Virus record (IMG/VR): IMGVR_UViG_3300024262_003533
Location: 1 to 27,744 of that record
Length of the DNA: 27,744 nt
Origin: a virus
Direction: 5' to 3' (one strand)
Position 1 is the stretch's first letter. Each line of letters begins with the position of its first letter. A model generated the notes under the pieces. That model saw only the letters and a program-made list of their open reading frames with translations, did no database searches and was not told the origin of the DNA. This document shows positions 4-23,823 of the stretch, one piece after another. Position numbers and translations under genes: made by a program.

Positions 4-792
4 ATGTCAAAGATTGGTATAGGTATTATAACATGCAATAGAAATGAATTTCTTGCAAACTGCGTTAAAAGCATCTCTTCAGAATGGTATGATGAGATTA
101 TTATTATTAATGACGGAGATACTCCGATTACAACATTTTATGATTGTGATATTATTAATAATGAGGAAAACATAGGAGTATGTAAAAGTAAGAATAAGGC
201 TTTAAAGGAATTGCTGAGTAGAGGCTGTGAATATGTTTTCCTCGTGGAGGATGACATGAGATTTAAGGGTAATGCTTTTGACGAATATATTAAAGCTAGT
301 CAAGTTACCGGTATAGAGCATATGTCCTTTGCTTACCATGGCCCGGCTAATAAAGGTAATATAAGTAAAGGTACCCCAAAGCCGAGAAAGATAATCGATT
401 ACGGAAATATTAAAATTGCCTTAAATCAGCACTCTGTTGGTGCAGTATGTTTTTATACTAAAAAGTGTCTGGAAGATGTAGGTTTATTTGATGAAGAGTT
501 TGACAAAAATAATTTTGAACATGTAGATCATTCATATAGATTAGCTAAAGCTGGTTATAGTACACCTTACTGGTGGTGGGCTGACTTAGCTAATAGCTTA
601 GATTTTATTGAAGAGCAAGCTTGTAGTGAAGATTCTTCTTCAATAAGAAGAGGAGATGACTGGCAACAGAGTATTATTGATAGTGCTTATATTTTTAAAA
701 GAAAACATGGAGTAATGCCGGCATGGAGCGGATGTGTACCCGATACTCCAGTTAATGAAGTTGTTAATTTTTTAAAGAAAGTTAAGCGATGA
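4..792 (+). CDS. GT2-like (GT-A fold) glycosyltransferase
   Basis: Probable nucleotide-sugar-dependent glycosyltransferase of the GT-A fold. The N-terminus (GIGIITCNRNEFLANC) is the usual first strand and helix of GT2 enzymes. An acidic metal-binding motif LVEDD lies at residues 80-84 in place of the DxD, and a later FDEEF...HVDHSYRLAKAGY stretch resembles the acceptor-side ED region. At 262 aa it is a compact single-domain enzyme with no membrane segment, so it should act in the cytoplasm. The start is the ATG at position 4. Its stop overlaps the next gene's start by 4 bp, and it leads a run of six glycan genes on the same strand. Donor and acceptor cannot be told from sequence. Confidence 0.8.
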   Translation: MSKIGIGIITCNRNEFLANCVKSISSEWYDEIIIINDGDTPITTFYDCDIINNEENIGVCKSKNKALKELLSRGCEYVFLVEDDMRFKGNAFDEYIKASQVTGIEHMSFAYHGPANKGNISKGTPKPRKIIDYGNIKIALNQHSVGAVCFYTKKCLEDVGLFDEEFDKNNFEHVDHSYRLAKAGYSTPYWWWADLANSLDFIEEQACSEDSSSIRRGDDWQQSIIDSAYIFKRKHGVMPAWSGCVPDTPVNEVVNFLKKVKR

Positions 793-1514
793 TATCTTTC
801 ATTATAGCTTATAGGCGAGATACTAGTGAGAGGCAGTTAAATTTAGAATATTGTAAAGCTTATTATAAAACATTAATACCAGAATGTGAAATTATAGTTA
901 AAGAGTCTACAGATGATATTTTTAATAAATGTAAATTATATAATCTAGGAGCTGGAGAAGCTAAAAATAATATAATATGCTTCTTAGATAGCGATGTATT
1001 TGTTTCTGAATGTTCAATTAAAAAATCTATTGAATTGGCTAGTAAAAATAATGTTGTTATAGGTTACAATGGAGTAGCCATATATCTATCATACTTATCA
1101 AAGCAGACTCTAACTAAGGCCTTGACATATGATGATTTATTAACAATATTACCAAAAAATTATAAGCCTACTAGGTTAGAAAAAAATAAAATGTTTGAGG
1201 TAGGTAATTTAAGAGCTGTTGGAGGTTGTTTGATAATGACTAAAGATTGTTTTAAAGATATAAACGGGTTTAATCCTAATTTTATTGGTTGGGGATATGA
1301 AGATAACGAAATTATACAAAGATCTCATAAGTTACTAAAGCTCGTTGTTATGGTTAATACTAAAAGACCGTATCTATTTCATTTACCTCATCATAATATT
1401 GAAGAAGATAAAAGTGATCATAATTTTTATAATAATAATCAATTGGAATATCAAAAGATATGTAAAATGGATAGCAATAAAATTAAACAATATATAAAGA
1501 CATGGAAAGTGTAG
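789..1514 (+). CDS. Galactosyltransferase-like GT-A glycosyltransferase (GT2/GT7-C type)
   Basis: A 241-aa glycosyltransferase. The DSD motif at residues 67-69 is the metal/nucleotide-sugar site. The segment FIGWGYEDNEI at 165-175 closely resembles the C-terminal signature of beta-1,4-galactosyltransferase-like enzymes (WGWGxED), where the ED pair contacts the acceptor. The N-terminus (ISFIIAYRR) is the first Rossmann-like strand. It overlaps both neighbours (4 bp upstream, 13 bp downstream), which implies translational coupling in one operon. Sugar specificity is not determinable. No transmembrane segment is visible. Confidence 0.8.
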   Translation: MISFIIAYRRDTSERQLNLEYCKAYYKTLIPECEIIVKESTDDIFNKCKLYNLGAGEAKNNIICFLDSDVFVSECSIKKSIELASKNNVVIGYNGVAIYLSYLSKQTLTKALTYDDLLTILPKNYKPTRLEKNKMFEVGNLRAVGGCLIMTKDCFKDINGFNPNFIGWGYEDNEIIQRSHKLLKLVVMVNTKRPYLFHLPHHNIEEDKSDHNFYNNNQLEYQKICKMDSNKIKQYIKTWKV

Positions 1515-2170
1515 ATGTTATAATACTATCTAATACTGCAGATATAAAGTATTATAATATGCTTAAGAGGTGTGTAGATTCTATTAAGCGTAGTGATAAT
1601 ATCAATACTCGCATTATATTAATAGAAAGTAATAAACGGCTTAAGGGTAAGGACCTAAAGCTGCCAATAGATGTTATTATTGTACCAGATGAGAAGTTTA
1701 ATTATAATAAGTTCTTAAACTACGGTGTGCGGGAATGTATACATAATAATATTTGTATTACAAACAATGATGTTTACTATTATCCAAATACAATAAGTAC
1801 GTTAGTATCTCATTTAAATGTATATGACTCGGTATCACCGTGGGATAATAACATGACATTTAGACTTCATAGTAGTAAGGGTATATATGAAGGGTATAAG
1901 ACACGATATCACTTAACCGGTTACAGTTTTATATTAAAACAATCAACTCTAGACGCAATTGGCGGTAGCTTTGATGAGAGGTTCAGTTTTTGGTACGCAG
2001 ATGATGATTACGCGATGTGTTTAATGGAAAAAGGACTTAGACATGCTATGATCGGAGATGCAGAAGTCTTTCATGAGATTGAGCAGTCACATGCGCTGTT
2101 TGATGATGAAGAGAGAAAGATCCAAACAATTAATGCAAAAAAGATTTTTGATGATAAATGGAAAAATTAA
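1502..2170 (+). CDS. GT2-like glycosyltransferase
   Basis: A 222-aa GT-A-type glycosyltransferase. It has an N-terminal VDVIILSNTAD strand, an NND motif at residues 88-90 taking the DxD position, and an acidic FWYADDDY motif at about 163-170 that fits the ED acceptor/base region of GT2 enzymes. It overlaps the preceding gene by 13 bp and the following one by 13 bp, again without room for separate regulation. It is a different subtype from the two upstream enzymes, so the cluster probably builds a multi-step oligosaccharide rather than repeating one transfer. The substrate is unknown. Confidence 0.75.
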   Translation: MESVDVIILSNTADIKYYNMLKRCVDSIKRSDNINTRIILIESNKRLKGKDLKLPIDVIIVPDEKFNYNKFLNYGVRECIHNNICITNNDVYYYPNTISTLVSHLNVYDSVSPWDNNMTFRLHSSKGIYEGYKTRYHLTGYSFILKQSTLDAIGGSFDERFSFWYADDDYAMCLMEKGLRHAMIGDAEVFHEIEQSHALFDDEERKIQTINAKKIFDDKWKN

Positions 2171-2970
2171 GAGTATCTATAATTGATAAGAATTTTGAAG
2201 GCAGGGATATTATAAATATGCCTGGTGTAAATTTTTCATGGTGGAATAAGAACGAGCTTATAAGTGATAGCGTCTTTATAACTGACTATTGTCTCCATAT
2301 GGTTGATAAACTTAAAGATCATCCAGTTAAAAGGATTGCCTGGTTATTAGAGCCGAGAGCTATTTGCAGTAGTTCATATAGGTACGTAGAAACCAATCAT
2401 GATAAGTTTGATACTATTTTAACTTTTGATGAAGATCTGCTGACTAATATTAAAAACGCTAAATTTATGCCGTATGGATCCTTCTGGGTAGATAAATCAA
2501 ACATTCCAAAAACATTAAAGATATCAATGATATCATCATTTAAAAACTTTGCAAGTGGTCATCAATTACGCCATCAAATTTATAATACACATAAAGGTGT
2601 AATTGATATGTTTGGATCAATTACCGGTGATCGTATTAGTAGTAAAAATATTGGTCTAGATAATTACATGTTTTCAGTAGCTGTTGAAAATAGTATTCAG
2701 AGCGGGTATTGGACTGAAAAAATACTTGACTGTTTTGCTACAAAAACTATTCCTATATACTGGGGAAGTGAAACAATAAGTGAATACTTTAATACAGATG
2801 GTGTATTATTTTTTAATAGTTTAGAAGAATTAAATGAAATTATTAAATCTTGCACTGAAGAAACATACCGTAGTATGCTTAGTGCTGTCGAGGATAACTT
2901 TAAGAGAGTTTCAAGATTTAATATTCCAGAGATGTTTATAGAGGATAACTATGAGGATTTATTATCATGA
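2158..2970 (+). CDS. GT10-type (alpha-1,3-fucosyltransferase-like) glycosyltransferase
   Basis: A 270-aa protein whose C-terminal half carries the GT10 signature. At residues 170-189 there is an F-x-V-x-V-E-N-S stretch, then Y-W-T-E-K-I, followed by TIPIYWGS. In GT10 enzymes this block binds GDP-fucose (the ENS...TEK residues contact the nucleotide sugar). The N-terminal half is the poorly conserved acceptor domain. By family knowledge this would transfer fucose or a related GDP-sugar to an oligosaccharide; the real acceptor is unknown. It overlaps the upstream gene by 13 bp and the next gene by 4 bp. Soluble, with no membrane anchor. Poxvirus-like DNA glycosylation genes are not resembled. 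Confidence 0.75.
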   Translation: MEKLRVSIIDKNFEGRDIINMPGVNFSWWNKNELISDSVFITDYCLHMVDKLKDHPVKRIAWLLEPRAICSSSYRYVETNHDKFDTILTFDEDLLTNIKNAKFMPYGSFWVDKSNIPKTLKISMISSFKNFASGHQLRHQIYNTHKGVIDMFGSITGDRISSKNIGLDNYMFSVAVENSIQSGYWTEKILDCFATKTIPIYWGSETISEYFNTDGVLFFNSLEELNEIIKSCTEETYRSMLSAVEDNFKRVSRFNIPEMFIEDNYEDLLS

Positions 2971-3758
2971 AAAACTATGTTATAGTACCTGGCGGTAGAA
3001 TGGCTGGCTTATTTTCTTACGTATTGCAAGCTATCCATAACCTATCTGTTGTGGATAATACTGAGGATAAACTATTTATAAAGTATACTAACAACATGTT
3101 ATATCTCGAACCTTCTAGAGGTAGTAACGTATGGGATTATTATTTGTATCAGCCATTCTCTTTTAATAGAGATGATATTATTAATAATCCAAAAGAAGAA
3201 GTAGTGTTTATTGAAGATGATTTAGCGTTAAAATTATGTCATAACCCTCGACCAACACTAGAGATGATTGAGAAAGCACAATATATTACTACTAAATATA
3301 TCAAAGTAAAAGAACATATACTCGAAAAAGTTAATATGTTTATAGGTGATAATTTTGGTAATGAAAAGTACTTTGCTATGCATAAAAGAGGTACAGACCA
3401 TGGTAAAGACGCTCCTTTACTTAAAATTGATGACTACATTAATCGCGCTGATAAGCTTTTTGATCAATACGATTTAGGATTAATATGCACAGATGAACAT
3501 AGTACAGTGGCTGCCTTTAAAAAGAGATATGGCAATAAAATAAAATCTTACAACTCAATTAGATGTGATAATGATAGGGGTATACACTATAGTGTAGGTT
3601 TAACCTCACCGTATCAGATGGGTGAAGATGTTATTATTGAGTCTATACTTATGTCAAAATCTGATTTATTAATACGTACAGTTTCAGGAGTAACAATGTT
3701 CTCGATAATATACGGCAATCCAAAATTTGAAAACATTGATTTACATATAAAGTATTAA
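2967..3758 (+). CDS. Fucosyltransferase-like GT-B glycosyltransferase (GT11/GT23/NodZ-like)
   Basis: A 263-aa protein with features of the inverting fucosyltransferase superfamily that includes GT11, GT23 and POFUT enzymes. It starts with a glycine-rich GGRMAGLFSYVLQAIHN segment. The motif H-K-R-G-T-D at residues 139-144 matches the HxRxxD GDP-fucose-binding motif, and near the C-terminus E-S-I-L-M-S-x-S-D...S-G-V-T-M-F resembles the third conserved motif. The exact family is uncertain. It follows the GT10-like gene with a 4-bp overlap, so two different fucosyltransferase-type enzymes are coupled. No GDP-fucose synthesis gene is seen in the window. Confidence 0.6.
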   Translation: MKNYVIVPGGRMAGLFSYVLQAIHNLSVVDNTEDKLFIKYTNNMLYLEPSRGSNVWDYYLYQPFSFNRDDIINNPKEEVVFIEDDLALKLCHNPRPTLEMIEKAQYITTKYIKVKEHILEKVNMFIGDNFGNEKYFAMHKRGTDHGKDAPLLKIDDYINRADKLFDQYDLGLICTDEHSTVAAFKKRYGNKIKSYNSIRCDNDRGIHYSVGLTSPYQMGEDVIIESILMSKSDLLIRTVSGVTMFSIIYGNPKFENIDLHIKY

Positions 3759-5135: not shown

Positions 5136-5729
5136 ATGATTATTAAAGATATTAAGGTTTATGACGGTCCATTAATTCATAAGCGCTTTGCTTACGATTA
5201 CTTTCGTAATAAGACGTTACCTATTGGTAATATTATCGCTTTTCGATGCCCGATGGATGTGAGTATCGATGGTATGATCGATCAGGAAGATGTACTTCAA
5301 GGCGACTATATCTATAGTGATGATGCTATTAACTTCTGCTGGGAAATTCCTAATCTAGATAAGCTAGGTGCTGTAGCGTTTCAGCGATTGCTTAATACTC
5401 AAATTGCTAATGTACTTTCTTCTAAATATATTAAGAAGCCTATTGAAGTAGACGGGGATGATTTGATGGTACATGCTGAGTTTGAAGGTAGTGATGGTAC
5501 ATTACAAAAGGTCGGTAAGTGTAGTGTAAGTATTACTTATTCGAAAGATAGTGTAGCTATCGGCCATACTGGTATTAATGTTAATGCCGGTCGTAAAGCT
5601 CCTAACTTTGCATATAGTACAGGTTTAACTGATGAACAGGCTACTGAATTTATGCAAGATATTATTGATCTTTTTTATGCGATGGTAGATGATATGTTCA
5701 TCGCTTGCTGCAAGATAAATATTTGGTAA
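5136..5729 (+). CDS. DUF366 family protein
   Basis: A 197-aa protein that resembles the DUF366 family, known from archaeal genomes and from a solved Pyrococcus structure related to biotin/lipoate ligase folds. Recognisable parts are IIAFRCPMDVSIDGMIDQEDV near the N-terminus, LGAVAFQRLLNTQIANVL in the middle, KCSVSITYSKDSVAIGHTGINV, and a helical C-terminus. This assignment is from memory of the family and not a search. The function is unknown in all members I know. It has its own promoter, so it is a separate transcription unit from the glycan genes before it. Length matches the family (about 190 aa). Confidence 0.6.
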   Translation: MIIKDIKVYDGPLIHKRFAYDYFRNKTLPIGNIIAFRCPMDVSIDGMIDQEDVLQGDYIYSDDAINFCWEIPNLDKLGAVAFQRLLNTQIANVLSSKYIKKPIEVDGDDLMVHAEFEGSDGTLQKVGKCSVSITYSKDSVAIGHTGINVNAGRKAPNFAYSTGLTDEQATEFMQDIIDLFYAMVDDMFIACCKINIW

Positions 5730-6199: not shown

Positions 6200-6210
6200 A
6201 CTCTATATGG
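6181..6210. repeat. Perfect 10-bp inverted repeat over the groES promoter and start codon
   Basis: CCATATAGAG (6181-6190) and CTCTATATGG (6201-6210) are exact reverse complements around a 10-nt centre that holds the TAAATA -10 box. The ATG (6207-6209) is inside the right arm. It may be a repressor operator in DNA or, on read-through mRNA, a hairpin hiding the start codon. The half-site CCATATA/TATATGG also occurs at the thioredoxin gene. Confidence 0.75.
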
Positions 6211-6617
6211 CATCAGCAAGTATTGACAGTTTAGCAACCAAAAGAAGTTTAATAGATATCGAGGGTCACAGTGACGGTGATTTCGGTCTCGGTGAAGAGT
6301 TTTTACTCTCTTTTGTTTTCGATGATATTATTCTAGTGGAGTTTATTGATGAATCTTCTGAAGAGGGAGCAGGGGATGCAATTAAAAGAGGTGGTATCTT
6401 TATACCTACAAATGCTCTGAATAAAACATGGAGAAAGGCTAAAGTAATATTAGTAGGACCTGAGGCTAAGTATACTAAGAAGGGCGACATAGTAATGTTT
6501 CCTAATGATAAAGGCGCGCCAGTATCCAATATGGATATTGAAGGTTATGGTAAAATTAAAAGGGGTATGTTCTTAAATGAACAGCGATTGTTTGGGATTT
6601 GCAAATCAAAAACGTAA
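6207..6617 (+). CDS. GroES/gp31-like cochaperonin
   Basis: A 136-aa protein. After a roughly 35-residue N-terminal extension it has the GroES beta-barrel pattern. FDDIILVEFIDE is the first strand. A flexible glycine-rich segment ending in RGGIFIP sits where the GroEL-binding mobile loop lies. KAKVILVGPEAKYTKKGDIVMFPNDKG is the core GroES motif (vlaVGpg...vkvGD.V.f), and the C-terminus is RLFGICK. By family it caps the GroEL chamber; T4 gp31 does this to fold gp23. A phage GroEL is encoded about 9 kb downstream, so the two likely form a phage-specific pair. The ATG lies inside a perfect palindrome. Confidence 0.75.
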   Translation: MASASIDSLATKRSLIDIEGHSDGDFGLGEEFLLSFVFDDIILVEFIDESSEEGAGDAIKRGGIFIPTNALNKTWRKAKVILVGPEAKYTKKGDIVMFPNDKGAPVSNMDIEGYGKIKRGMFLNEQRLFGICKSKT

Positions 6618-15420: not shown

Positions 15421-17074
<1,654 letters not shown>

Positions 17075-17119: not shown

Positions 17120-17137
17120 TTGATATATGGAAATTAT
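17095..17137. repeat. Perfect 15-bp inverted repeat over the thioredoxin promoter and start codon
   Basis: ATAATTTCCATATAT (17095-17109) and ATATATGGAAATTAT (17123-17137) are exact reverse complements around a 13-nt centre carrying the TAAATA -10. The start codon (17127-17129) is in the right arm. As at groES, the inner half-sites are CCATATA and TATATGG. Likely an operator, or a start-codon-masking hairpin on read-through transcripts from groEL. Confidence 0.8.
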
Positions 17138-17396
17138 TAAATTCTCCGCCCCATGGTGCGGGCCTTGTAAAGCTTATAAAAATATTTTTGATAAAGTTAT
17201 ATCAAAATATAATAATATATCTGTAATAGAAGCAAATGTTGACACAGATGTTGAAATTACAAAAAAATACGATATATCATCCATACCCACTACAATTATT
17301 TCAAAAAATAATCTTGAGCTAGTTAGGCTGAAAGGTATAATTAATGAAAAAGATTTAAAGTTGTGTATAGATAAGTACATTAAAATAAAAATATAA
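17127..17396 (+). CDS. Thioredoxin-like protein
   Basis: A short 89-aa thioredoxin. Active site WCGPC at residues 10-14, and the cis-proline is P54 in SSIPTT. It is shorter than bacterial thioredoxin 1 (about 105-108 aa), lacking the N-terminal helix and strand, and close in size to T4 NrdC, which is glutaredoxin-like. It most likely reduces the C-terminal disulfide of the phage NrdA. It lies just after groEL and before a SemiSWEET-like gene. Confidence 0.9.
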   Translation: MEIIKFSAPWCGPCKAYKNIFDKVISKYNNISVIEANVDTDVEITKKYDISSIPTTIISKNNLELVRLKGIINEKDLKLCIDKYIKIKI

Positions 17397-17398
17397 TA

Positions 17399-17656
17399 AT
17401 GCATATTATAGGCTGGGTTTACACAATATGCTTTGCAATCTGCTATATTCCGCAGATAGTTAAGTCAATACGGACAAAGAGAGTAGATGATATAAGTATA
17501 TCACTATTTATATTATCTTTAGCTGGATATATATGTGCAGGTGTATATACTATAGGTACTATAGGTATTAATATTATACTATTAACAAATTATATTTTTG
17601 GTTCTTTTTGTAGTTTATTTATGATAATAACTTACTATTGGTTTAAGCGAGAATAA
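17399..17656 (+). CDS. SemiSWEET-like PQ-loop membrane protein
   Basis: An 85-aa integral membrane protein with three hydrophobic helices (about 4-22, 35-55 and 60-80). Helix 1 carries the PQ motif (CYIPQIVKSI, P18-Q19). It is followed by a basic loop and the DISISLFILSLAGY segment typical of SemiSWEET sugar transporters, and an Asn (LLTN) in helix 3 at the position of the substrate-binding Asn. SemiSWEETs form dimers and move mono- or disaccharides down their gradient. The gene begins 2 bp after the thioredoxin stop. Substrate unknown. Other PQ-loop small proteins remain possible. Confidence 0.7.
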   Translation: MHIIGWVYTICFAICYIPQIVKSIRTKRVDDISISLFILSLAGYICAGVYTIGTIGINIILLTNYIFGSFCSLFMIITYYWFKRE

Positions 17657-21463: not shown

Positions 21464-21491
21464 TTGAAATACCAGTTTTATACTCTATAAT
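21464..21491 (+). promoter_or_regulatory. Sigma70-like promoter of the deazaguanine cassette
   Basis: TTGAAA (21464-21469), 16 bp, TATAAT (21486-21491), then 6 bp to the ATG at 21498. This has the same geometry as the promoters at 5136 and 15455 and predicts a leaderless mRNA for the TGT-like gene. Confidence 0.75.
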
Positions 21492-21497
21492 AGTTAT

Positions 21498-22289
21498 ATG
21501 TATGTATCACACGAAAGTCCTATATCTATTTTAACTCAATCACGGTCATATAACGATTATGATTACGCGTTAGTTCATCTATTTGAAACTCACCCAGAAT
21601 ACTACCAGTTCTTTAAGGACTCCATTAAACTAGGTCGTCAAGTATTGCTGGATAATAGTATTTTTGAGCTCGGTGAATCCTTCGATTGTGAAAAGTTTGC
21701 TATGTATACTAGAGAATTAAAGCCTAGTTTTTATATTGTACCAGATGTATTAGAAGATGGGTATGCTACAATTAAGAGCTTTTCAGAATTTACTAGTAAA
21801 TACCCAGATTTACCTGGATTGAAAATCGGTGCGGTACAAGGTAAAACATATGATGAGATTGTAGACTGCTATAAATATATGTCTGAATATGCTGACTATA
21901 TTGCAATTAGTTTTAATTTTAGTTATTATATTGTAACCGGTAGAGGTCGAACCCAGCTTGAAAGATGGTGTGATGGCCGTCAGCGACTAATTAGTCAATT
22001 AAAATCTGATGGTATTTGGAATAAAAATAAGCCTCATCACCTTTTAGGTTGTTCTTTGGCTAAGGAATTTAAGAGTTATGTTGGTGATAGCTCTATTAGA
22101 TCGGTCGATACATCTAATCCGGTAGTTGCAGGTATTAAGGAACTTAGATATAATGGTGATCTCGGATTAACTGAAAAGCCGTCAATTCTGCTAGCTGATC
22201 TAATTGATTATAAAGTTACTGATACAGAGCAAGAAAATATAAATTACAATGTCGAACAATTTAAAAGTATTATAGGTTATGGTTATTAG
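21498..22289 (+). CDS. tRNA-guanine transglycosylase-like / DpdA-like base-exchange enzyme
   Basis: A 263-aa TIM-barrel-type protein with the TGT motifs in order. LLDNSIFELG (50-59) aligns with DSGGFQ, with D52 as candidate catalytic Asp. YIVPDVLED (79-87) matches the PD segment. GAVQGKTYDE (111-120) aligns with the VQGG motif. HHLLGCSL (180-187) aligns with the YLMGVG motif, followed by VDTSNP (203-208), where D204 fits the nucleophile Asp. It swaps guanine for a 7-deazaguanine in DNA (DpdA) or tRNA (TGT). It lacks the C-terminal CxCxxC zinc site of bacterial TGT and is far shorter than TGT (about 375 aa). QueF in the same operon supports the call. Confidence 0.7.
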   Translation: MYVSHESPISILTQSRSYNDYDYALVHLFETHPEYYQFFKDSIKLGRQVLLDNSIFELGESFDCEKFAMYTRELKPSFYIVPDVLEDGYATIKSFSEFTSKYPDLPGLKIGAVQGKTYDEIVDCYKYMSEYADYIAISFNFSYYIVTGRGRTQLERWCDGRQRLISQLKSDGIWNKNKPHHLLGCSLAKEFKSYVGDSSIRSVDTSNPVVAGIKELRYNGDLGLTEKPSILLADLIDYKVTDTEQENINYNVEQFKSIIGYGY

Positions 22290-22830
22290 TTTTACAGGAG
22301 CACAGAGTACAGGTAAAACGACTTTATTAAATGAGTTGCAGCTAGATAAGCGTTTTAAAAAATTCTCCTTTATTAAAGAGGTTACGCGTTTAGTAAAGAA
22401 AAAACATAAGCTAAGTATTAATGAAGAAGGTGACAATATGACTCAATTAGCGATACTAAGCGCTCATTTGGATAATTATTTAATCTCCCGTGATAAAAAT
22501 ATTATATTAGACCGGTGTATTCTGGACGGTTTGGTGTACACTGTATATTTGCATATTATGAAAAAGGTAGATACACAGGTAGCGGATTACGCAGAGTATC
22601 TTACGCATAAATTAATTGGTAACGTAGATATTATATTCTATACGGAGCCTGACATCCCTTTAGTAGATGATGGGGAGAGAAGCGTTAATAAAGAGTTTCG
22701 TACACGAATTATACATCTCTTCGAGATGGCGATCGAACACTTTAAAATTAATGTTGTAAGATTAGAAGGTACAGTGGAGCAGCGACTAGAAATAATATAT
22801 AATACATTTGATAATTATGAAAAACGGTAA
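22279..22830 (+). CDS. P-loop kinase, NadR/AAA_28-like
   Basis: A 183-aa P-loop NTPase. Walker A is GAQSTGKTT at residues 7-15. The segment ILDRCILDGLVYT is like the DR-containing motif of NadR-type nicotinamide riboside kinases and related nucleoside kinases. IIFYTEPDIPLVDDGERS resembles the lid/base region. The substrate is unknown; in this operon a nucleoside or deazaguanine-related role is conceivable but there is no direct evidence. The start overlaps the TGT-like gene by 11 bp and its end overlaps queF by 14 bp, so all three are tightly coupled. Confidence 0.65.
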   Translation: MVISFTGAQSTGKTTLLNELQLDKRFKKFSFIKEVTRLVKKKHKLSINEEGDNMTQLAILSAHLDNYLISRDKNIILDRCILDGLVYTVYLHIMKKVDTQVADYAEYLTHKLIGNVDIIFYTEPDIPLVDDGERSVNKEFRTRIIHLFEMAIEHFKINVVRLEGTVEQRLEIIYNTFDNYEKR

Positions 22831-23743
22831 AATAGATAACAGCAATATTAATAAGCACCTAGGTCAAACGTCTCAGTATAAGAGCGTATACGATAGGGAG
22901 CTGCTTGTAAGAGAACCTCGACGTAACAACAGAGAGTATCTGAATATTTTCGAGGAGGCCTTACCATTCGTTGGATCAGATACGTGGAATGCATATGAAT
23001 GCTCATTCCTTCTAAATAGTGGCCGTCCGGTAACAGGTATTGTTAAGTGTGTATATTCATGCCATAGTGAGTATATTGTAGAGAGTAAGAGTATTAAACT
23101 ATACTTTAATTCATTTAACATGACTAAAATGGGCGATCAAAATGATGTCGCAGTTAAGAACTTCGAAGAGATTACTGCTAGAGACTTAACTACATTACTC
23201 GGTACTGATGTAGTTATATCTTTCCATAGTGGTGAAAGAGTAAATTGTAAGTCTGGCAGTCCTGATACGGAGTGGTTTATGCAAGATTATATCAATGTAG
23301 ATCTACTTGATACTGATGGTTATACTTTTAATAAATATACTGAAAGTCCAGAACTATTAGAAGGCACTATACAGACCATAGAAAGTGAGCAGCAATTTTA
23401 CTCTGGACTGTTAAAGAGTAACTGCCGCGTAACTTCTCAGCCAGATTGGGGTGATGTATTTATCTATATAAAGTCTAATGTGGAAGTATTGCCTAAGAGT
23501 ATATTAAAGTATATCGTATCGTTTAGAGACGAGTGTCATTTTCATGAAGAAATTTGCGAGTGTATATATAAGCGGTTGCAGGATGCGTTCGATCCGAGCG
23601 AGCTCCTAGTAATGTGCCTATATGCGCGTCGAGGCGGCATTGATATCAATCCGGTTAGAGCGTCGAGCAATAATCTAATTCAACGGTTTGCTAAACAACT
23701 AGTTGATCCTGATACGGTACATACTAAAACCAGTAAGCAGTAA
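22817..23743 (+). CDS. queF: NADPH-dependent 7-cyano-7-deazaguanine reductase
   Basis: Reduces preQ0 nitrile to the preQ1 amine using NADPH. It is the long, unimodular-duplicated E. coli type (308 aa from the ATG at 22817; a TTG 9 bp upstream is an alternative). Residues ESKSIKLYFNSFN (89-101) form the substrate motif. Catalytic C203 is in LLKSNC and the acid D210 in QPDWGD. SFRDECHFHEE (235-245) and RRGGIDINP (271-279) complete the family signature and align well with E. coli QueF. It is the third gene of a cassette with a TGT-like enzyme. An intrinsic terminator follows immediately. Confidence 0.93.
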   Translation: MKNGKIDNSNINKHLGQTSQYKSVYDRELLVREPRRNNREYLNIFEEALPFVGSDTWNAYECSFLLNSGRPVTGIVKCVYSCHSEYIVESKSIKLYFNSFNMTKMGDQNDVAVKNFEEITARDLTTLLGTDVVISFHSGERVNCKSGSPDTEWFMQDYINVDLLDTDGYTFNKYTESPELLEGTIQTIESEQQFYSGLLKSNCRVTSQPDWGDVFIYIKSNVEVLPKSILKYIVSFRDECHFHEEICECIYKRLQDAFDPSELLVMCLYARRGGIDINPVRASSNNLIQRFAKQLVDPDTVHTKTSKQ

Positions 23744-23749
23744 TATAAG

Positions 23750-23777
23750 AGCCGATAGTGAAAGTTATCGGCTTTTT
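23750..23777 (+). terminator. Intrinsic terminator of the TGT-kinase-queF operon
   Basis: AGCCGATA (23750-23757) and TATCGGCT (23766-23773) form a perfect 8-bp stem with an 8-nt loop, followed by TTTT. It lies 7 bp after the queF stop. Confidence 0.8.
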
Positions 23778-23786
23778 AATGTATAC

Positions 23787-23823
23787 AAAAAGAGACCTAG
23801 TTCAAATTAATGAACTAGGTCTC
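23787..23823 (-). terminator. Intrinsic terminator of the major capsid gene
   Basis: GAGACCTAGTTCA (23792-23804) and TGAACTAGGTCTC (23811-23823) form a perfect 13-bp stem with a 6-nt loop. On the minus strand it is followed by five T (A residues at 23787-23791). It ends the capsid operon about 50 bp after the capsid stop. Confidence 0.85.

Follow-up and report, generated by a model that had tools for sequence, protein, structure and literature searches.

The closest described systems are phage 9g, Vibrio phage nt-1, Flavobacterium phage vB_FspM_immuto_2-6A (immuto, Immutovirus) and the Campylobacter firehammerviruses CP220, CPt10 and CP21. In 9g and nt-1, a DNA guanine transglycosylase (DpdA1 and DpdA2, respectively) occurs with preQ0 pathway genes, and partial replacement has been reported for 9g (PMC6884629). 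The DNA of firehammerviruses was described as 'highly modified by dADG' (PMC6884629), with complete replacement of dG by a 7-deazaguanine derivative (PMC10273834). The inserting enzyme of these phages was not named by Hutinet et al. (2019), who suggested a possible DpdA-independent route (PMC6884629). The immuto genome encodes dpdA, a thymidylate-kinase-like gene and queF in this order. In 2023 Cui and colleagues reportedly named a further subfamily, DpdA3, which is said to allow complete guanine replacement; we know of no kinase partner described for it.

Here we analyzed a 27.7-kb virus fragment (IMG/VR record IMGVR_UViG_3300024262_003533, positions 1-27,744; hereafter the window), to which the readable genome is limited. 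The virus belongs to an uncultured clade of T4-like phages with a bacterial host, and its capsid protein is about 34% identical to the best isolates among the matches listed. The window carries a three-gene cassette of dpdA, a small kinase gene and queF, which is very probably, as a whole and not for each of its steps, a phage DNA 7-deazaguanine modification module with a DpdA-type enzyme.

The window shares with immuto the order of the three genes and the presence of GroEL. It differs in that immuto has queD, queE and folE nearby, a formyltransferase gene that separates dpdA from the kinase gene, and a PRA-PH pyrophosphohydrolase upstream. In the firehammerviruses, a homologous dpdA (48% identity) is directly followed by a homologous kinase gene (36-38%), whereas QueF is missing beside dpdA, the reported base is dADG and an HD-domain/P-loop protein is encoded upstream. 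A DNA guanine transglycosylase, putative in the window's module, and preQ0 pathway genes are common to 9g, nt-1 and this module, but the DpdA of 9g is longer (317 aa) and no kinase is annotated directly beside it.

Organization of the cassette

An earlier note, made from the letters of this DNA, had proposed three plus-strand open reading frames overlapping by 11 bp (dpdA/kinase) and 14 bp (kinase/queF), and the coordinates matched (Table 1). An alternative TTG start for queF is present at 22808. A near-consensus promoter and a likely terminator were located for the single promoter and terminator of the note. The promoter motif was retained in 10 of 13 aligned relatives, and its distance from the dpdA ATG suggests that the transcript is probably leaderless or nearly so. 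The plus-strand T-run after the hairpin of the likely cassette terminator is short (TTTTAAT), and the terminator scan listed this hairpin on the minus strand only.

Table 1. Features of the cassette in the window and acyltransferase genes between dpdA and the kinase gene in related contigs
Feature	Position	Strand	Remarks
sigma-70-like promoter TTGAAA-16-TATAAT	21464..21491	+	11/12 consensus matches, best of the region; 6 nt upstream of the dpdA ATG
dpdA-type gene	21498..22289	+	263 aa ORF
small P-loop nucleoside/nucleotide kinase gene	22279..22830	+	183 aa ORF
queF	22817..23743	+	308 aa; ATG start at 22817
likely cassette terminator	23750..23773	+	hairpin AGCCGATA-GTGAAAGT-TATCGGCT then TTTT; 3' of queF; read from the sequence
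capsid operon terminator facing the cassette	23792..23823	-	13-bp stem and T-run; closes off the cassette
GNAT acetyltransferase gene	L040:8801-9343		between dpdA and the kinase gene
GNAT acetyltransferase gene	L071:3897-4439		between dpdA and the kinase gene
GNAT acetyltransferase gene	L128:6750-7298		between dpdA and the kinase gene

The left flank, on the minus strand, contains a gp5-like tail/baseplate gene (judged from sequence and position) and a gene without assigned function. The right flank, also on the minus strand, encodes the Gp23 capsid protein, a scaffold protein (judged from sequence and position) and an S77 prohead protease. These tail-side and capsid-side genes bear out the description of a plus-strand cassette between two minus-strand late blocks. 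The pN/pS values between the window and five relatives were 0.09-0.25 for dpdA, 0.26-0.39 for the kinase gene and 0.24-0.34 for queF, indicating purifying selection and maintenance of all three genes. The order dpdA-kinase-queF recurs in about 50 related contigs, which together with the purifying selection places the cassette far beyond chance. The term 'cargo insertion' used in the note is only partly apt, given the stable inheritance of the cassette across a large clade.

Other genes of the window were also recorded. A DUF366 protein is encoded at 5136-5729 (+; Pfam 4e-23; structure 2ddz), with 57-72% identity to proteins of the long relatives G001 and G002 and a further copy in the relative G006; no relevant paper on DUF366 was found among the matches listed. 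A PQ-loop/SemiSWEET-like membrane protein of 85 aa, a transporter-like phage gene product, is encoded at 17399-17656 (+; Pfam 1.7e-13) and is adjoined by a thioredoxin gene at 17127-17396. The phage GroEL gene is located at 15449-17074 (+), and a GroES/gp31 co-chaperonin look-alike was noticed by eye at 6207-6617 (+). At the left end (4-3758, +), there are five consecutive genes that look glycosyltransferase- or glycan-related, several of which are conserved in G002.

Identity and phylogeny of the dpdA-type gene

The product of the first gene gave no family match in Pfam, NCBIfam or PADLOC and is below Pfam TGT detection; the Pfam TGT search over the entire fragment likewise gave no match. It matched phrog_19058 (E 4.1e-66) and phrog_20335 (E 5.5e-13), two PHROGs listed as of unknown function. 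An AlphaFold (AF2) model built from 24 homologues reached a mean pLDDT of 92.7 and a pTM of 0.89, and by this model the protein has a TGT-type TIM-barrel fold. The earlier note had considered that a structure search might place the gene outside the TGT fold; in the Foldseek search each of the best 50 PDB matches was a tRNA-guanine transglycosylase (E down to 4.9e-9, probability 1.00).

In the HMM comparison that had been suggested, a profile of diverse homologues found the DNA-guanine transglycosylase 7ui4 as its best PDB sequence match, via HLLG...SiD, at a weak E of 0.093. The hhalign comparison of the family with E. coli TGT had a low probability and a low overall profile score, and the QG, LMGVG and D264 stretch of E. 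coli TGT was in register with AVQG (Q114-G115), HLLGC and SVDTS (D204). Against the single sequence of 9g DpdA, hhalign of the family gave no significant match.

Residues D52, R161, H181, G184 and D204 were invariant across 146 homologues, and D83 was present in 144 of them. D204 aligns with D264 of E. coli TGT, and by analogy with TGT Asp204 would be the nucleophile and Asp52 the acid/base. The protein resembles E. coli Tgt in the fold and in the order of the catalytic motifs, but is without its zinc site and C-terminal part; in the alignment to TGT, the region of the zinc-binding Cys/His site is absent. The isoelectric point was dropped as an argument about DNA binding in either direction, TGT, DpdA1 and this family being alike. 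The TGT fold, the catalytic motifs in register and the invariant D52 and D204 agree with the TGT/DpdA-like assignment of the note, and the gene is here regarded as encoding a putative DpdA-type DNA-guanine transglycosylase, with DNA suggested as the substrate by the reports on firehammervirus DNA.

The protein was 51% identical to its homologue in immuto, which is annotated as DpdA, and 48% identical to that of CP220. Distant homologues were found in Cellulophaga phage phiST, Chryseobacterium phage MA9V-3 and Weizmannia phage Youna2, all beside preQ0 genes; in these three phages and in immuto, the dpdA homologues sit among folE/queD/queE/queC. Close relatives were detected on 53 IMG/VR contigs; when the search was broadened, the number of relatives rose to at least 507, and 80 of these were fetched. 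The gene order dpdA-kinase-queF was kept in the window's clade wherever the flank was long enough, and queF or another preQ0 gene was near dpdA in 28 of 38 lineages.

Phylogenetic analysis (65 rows) placed the CP220 protein inside the window's clade of 22 rows (support 100/99), where it branched beside the GNAT-bearing phages (97/94) on a long branch. The protein of the window belongs to a compact subfamily that also includes the proteins of the Campylobacter firehammerviruses and of immuto, rather than to the 9g-type DpdA. The family is a good candidate for the firehammervirus inserting enzyme, and it is likely the same as DpdA3.

QueF and the supply of preQ0

The product of the third gene matched Pfam QueF_N (5.8e-29, 101.1 bits against a cut-off of 25.6) and QueF (6.6e-20, 71.6 against 27.3), and in the PDB the QueF structure 3bp1 (E 2.1e-40). 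Residues E89, C203, D210, H243 and E244 were invariant across 95 phage QueFs, and the ESKSxK motif is present. The match to the NCBIfam equivalog TIGR03138 (E 6.5e-72, 242.4 bits) stayed under its cut-off of 293.45 bits. This cut-off is an annotation threshold and not a catalytic feature; because phage QueFs are divergent, the shortfall weakens strict orthology, not the inferred QueF activity. The Pfam and PDB matches and the full set of catalytic residues uphold the QueF assignment made earlier, and favour a QueF of the long bimodular E. coli-like type, a predicted NADPH-dependent preQ0 reductase (preQ0 to preQ1).

The genes for preQ0 synthesis had been expected outside the window, and the genomes of relatives do encode them elsewhere. 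The 184-kb relative G001 encodes queC, queD, queE and folE. The 221-kb relative G002 encodes queC, queD and queE, and a search for folE in G002 did not find it. The relative G003 encodes queC, queD and folE. Of the long relatives, G006 is the nearest (nrdA 92% and dpdA 85% identical); it has queD and queE on the same contig, and its spacing suggests that queE is located roughly 8-9 kb left of the window's left edge.

The kinase partner

The second gene product matched Pfam AAA_28 (E 2.7e-19), and profile searches matched NadR and thymidylate kinase; the dTMP-kinase equivalog of NCBIfam was not matched. Its structure model (pLDDT 91.4) matched deoxycytidine kinase (dCK), thymidylate kinase (TMPK) and the NadR ribosylnicotinamide kinase in Foldseek, and the P-loop GAQSTGKT, D78-R79, D83, Y87 and the lid DDGxRS were invariant or nearly so. 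The modelled protein is a small P-loop nucleoside/nucleotide kinase with the thymidylate-kinase/NadR-kinase/deoxynucleoside-kinase fold.

The neighbourhood of dpdA was surveyed at 153 loci, which were grouped at 60% identity into 38 clusters; in 33 of them, dpdA was flanked by three or more genes on both sides. In 24 of these 33 lineages, a small P-loop kinase gene on the strand of dpdA was no more than three genes away from it, by the gene calls made in this analysis, while 3.5% of the genes in two large related genomes had such a neighbour (binomial 3e-28, with lineages that, as clusters at 60% identity, are not fully independent). For five of the nine remaining lineages, a homologous kinase was encoded elsewhere on the representative contigs. 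The kinase was also kept without QueF in CP220, L090, L112, L135, L152 and L110, which ties it to the base exchange itself and not to preQ1. Judged by this gene neighbourhood, the kinase belongs to the module as a constant partner of dpdA and is not an incidental gene.

The kinase of Streptomyces phage Karimac (26% identical) was set aside: the surrounding 25 kb contain no annotated dpdA or que gene, and it was taken for an ordinary thymidylate kinase. Relatives of the window's clade have, a few kb from queD/queE, a second and longer kinase paralogue of 235-272 aa (L064:3466-4281, L074:3578-4321, L080:4775-5569 and L083:12326-13030). The firehammervirus-like Campylobacter phage CC_R7 (L184) has queE and a kinase paralogue, and the search for dpdA gave no match there, possibly a natural loss of dpdA together with the adjacent kinase. 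By eye, look-alike proteins of about 160-175 aa without a Pfam match adjoin dpdA at L135:4689-5213, L146:6778-7281 and L110:7360-7836, and a region of L110 (2727-5951) contains queE and a dUTPase gene seemingly split by intein/HNH-like sequence.

The slot between dpdA and the kinase gene

At 39 loci, dpdA was separated from the kinase gene by a formyltransferase gene (Pfam Formyl_trans_N in those tested). A GNAT acetyltransferase gene was found there at three loci from two phages (L040/L071 and L128; Pfam Acetyltransf_1 2e-6 for L071). The slot was empty at 56 loci, those of the window's clade among them. Formyltransferases and GNAT enzymes commonly act on amines, therefore the slot enzymes fit preQ1 as the base. 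On these gene contents, formyl-dPreQ1 is predicted for the formyltransferase phages and an acetylated form (N-acetyl-preQ1) for the GNAT phages; to our knowledge, N-acetyl-preQ1 has no description as a DNA base. Since the window has no acyltransferase in its slot, unacylated dPreQ1 with a free amine is predicted for its phage.

Proposed mechanism and alternatives

The module reading is based on the fold, the catalytic residues, the synteny and the purifying selection, and from there the DNA substrate, preQ1, the extent of replacement and the role of the kinase are predicted. preQ0 would be made from GTP by phage queD, queE and queC (and folE in some relatives) outside the fragment, probably with help from host FolE, and would be reduced by QueF to preQ1. 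The DpdA-type enzyme would then exchange guanine for preQ1 in the phage DNA and release free guanine. The virion DNA would contain 2'-deoxy-preQ1, possibly in place of nearly all dG as reported for the firehammerviruses, and this would provide resistance to restriction enzymes, hiding the DNA from bacterial defences. The kinase most likely would handle the nucleotide traffic of the base exchange, either a deoxy-7-deazaguanosine phosphate or recycled guanine nucleotides.

Within the module reading, two alternatives concern the kinase and the mechanism. The first, with somewhat less than an even chance, is exchange on DNA coupled to a salvage loop, in which the freed guanine would be converted to GMP by a phosphoribosyltransferase and the kinase would return GMP to the pool or supply dNTPs. 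Guanine-salvage phosphoribosyltransferase genes of HGPRT/XGPRT type lie near dpdA in 9 of the 38 lineages, and G001 and G002 have them at other positions; they are consistent with this and could serve in recycling of the released guanine, but both routes would benefit from such an enzyme. In its similarities the kinase is closer to thymidylate and deoxynucleoside kinases than to guanylate kinase, and host Gmk could suffice.

The second, a tentative and rather unlikely one, is exchange at the nucleotide level. Here the DpdA-type enzyme would replace the base of free dGMP/dGTP with preQ1, the kinase would phosphorylate the deoxy-preQ1 monophosphate and the polymerase would incorporate the product. 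Full replacement would be expected, as in phages with hydroxymethyl-C or 2-aminoadenine, and the subfamily includes phages with complete dG replacement. The kinase, of thymidylate-kinase-like fold and with a DR motif, is the most constant neighbour of dpdA (24/33 against 3.5%), even without QueF as in CP220 and L090. Several lineages encode MazG or PRA-PH pyrophosphohydrolases no more than three genes from dpdA, and DNA polymerase genes are often near it. The kinase therefore suggests, but does not show, nucleotide-level exchange. However, TGT-fold enzymes of known substrate use polynucleotides, the kinase could have a part in normal nucleotide supply, and MazG genes are common in phages. In infected cells, Crippen and colleagues reportedly did not find phosphates of dADG in 2019, and Cui and colleagues are said to have inferred a post-replicative exchange in 2023; both count against the nucleotide-level route. 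The known literature favours exchange on DNA with salvage over exchange on free nucleotides. It is doubtful, and we would call it unlikely, that the kinase means both that this subfamily swaps bases on free deoxyguanosine nucleotides, giving dG-free genomes through the nucleotide pool, and that the slot (formyltransferase, acetyltransferase or empty) sets the preQ1 derivative, including N-acetyl-preQ1 in relatives.

For the base itself, preQ1 is the probable prediction. A different base is quite improbable: the QueF homologue would act as an amidinotransferase (QueF-L) to give archaeosine-type dG+, or preQ0 or ADG would be inserted directly. Reductase and amidinotransferase (QueF-L) are hard to tell apart among phage QueFs (PMC6884629) and the firehammerviruses carry dADG, but phages Dp-1 and HVTV-1, with QueF/QueF-L genes, carry dPreQ1 (PMC6884629). 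The full bimodular E. coli-like QueF with ESKSxK and the five invariant residues, and the formyl/acetyltransferase slot of the relatives, also argue for preQ1.

A transglycosylase acting on host or phage tRNA and boosting queuosine-type modification is very improbable: the TGT fold and a QueF that normally feeds tRNA queuosine would suit it, but the protein is compact, without the TGT zinc site and below Pfam TGT, its closest profile match is a DNA-guanine transglycosylase, a subfamily member occurs in phages with modified DNA, and a TGT of the host's own is usual in bacteria.

Significance

Modules of this type were already known; what is new is that a kinase constantly accompanies dpdA, that the acyltransferase slot is swappable and that there is a link with the firehammerviruses. 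The analysis places a large uncultured T4-like clade among the viruses with 7-deazaguanine DNA, and gives a putative function to phrog_19058 and phrog_20335. With the constant kinase, the choice between an on-DNA and a nucleotide-pool route to complete guanine replacement can be tested directly, and the content of the swappable slot gives a prediction of the base that each phage would carry.
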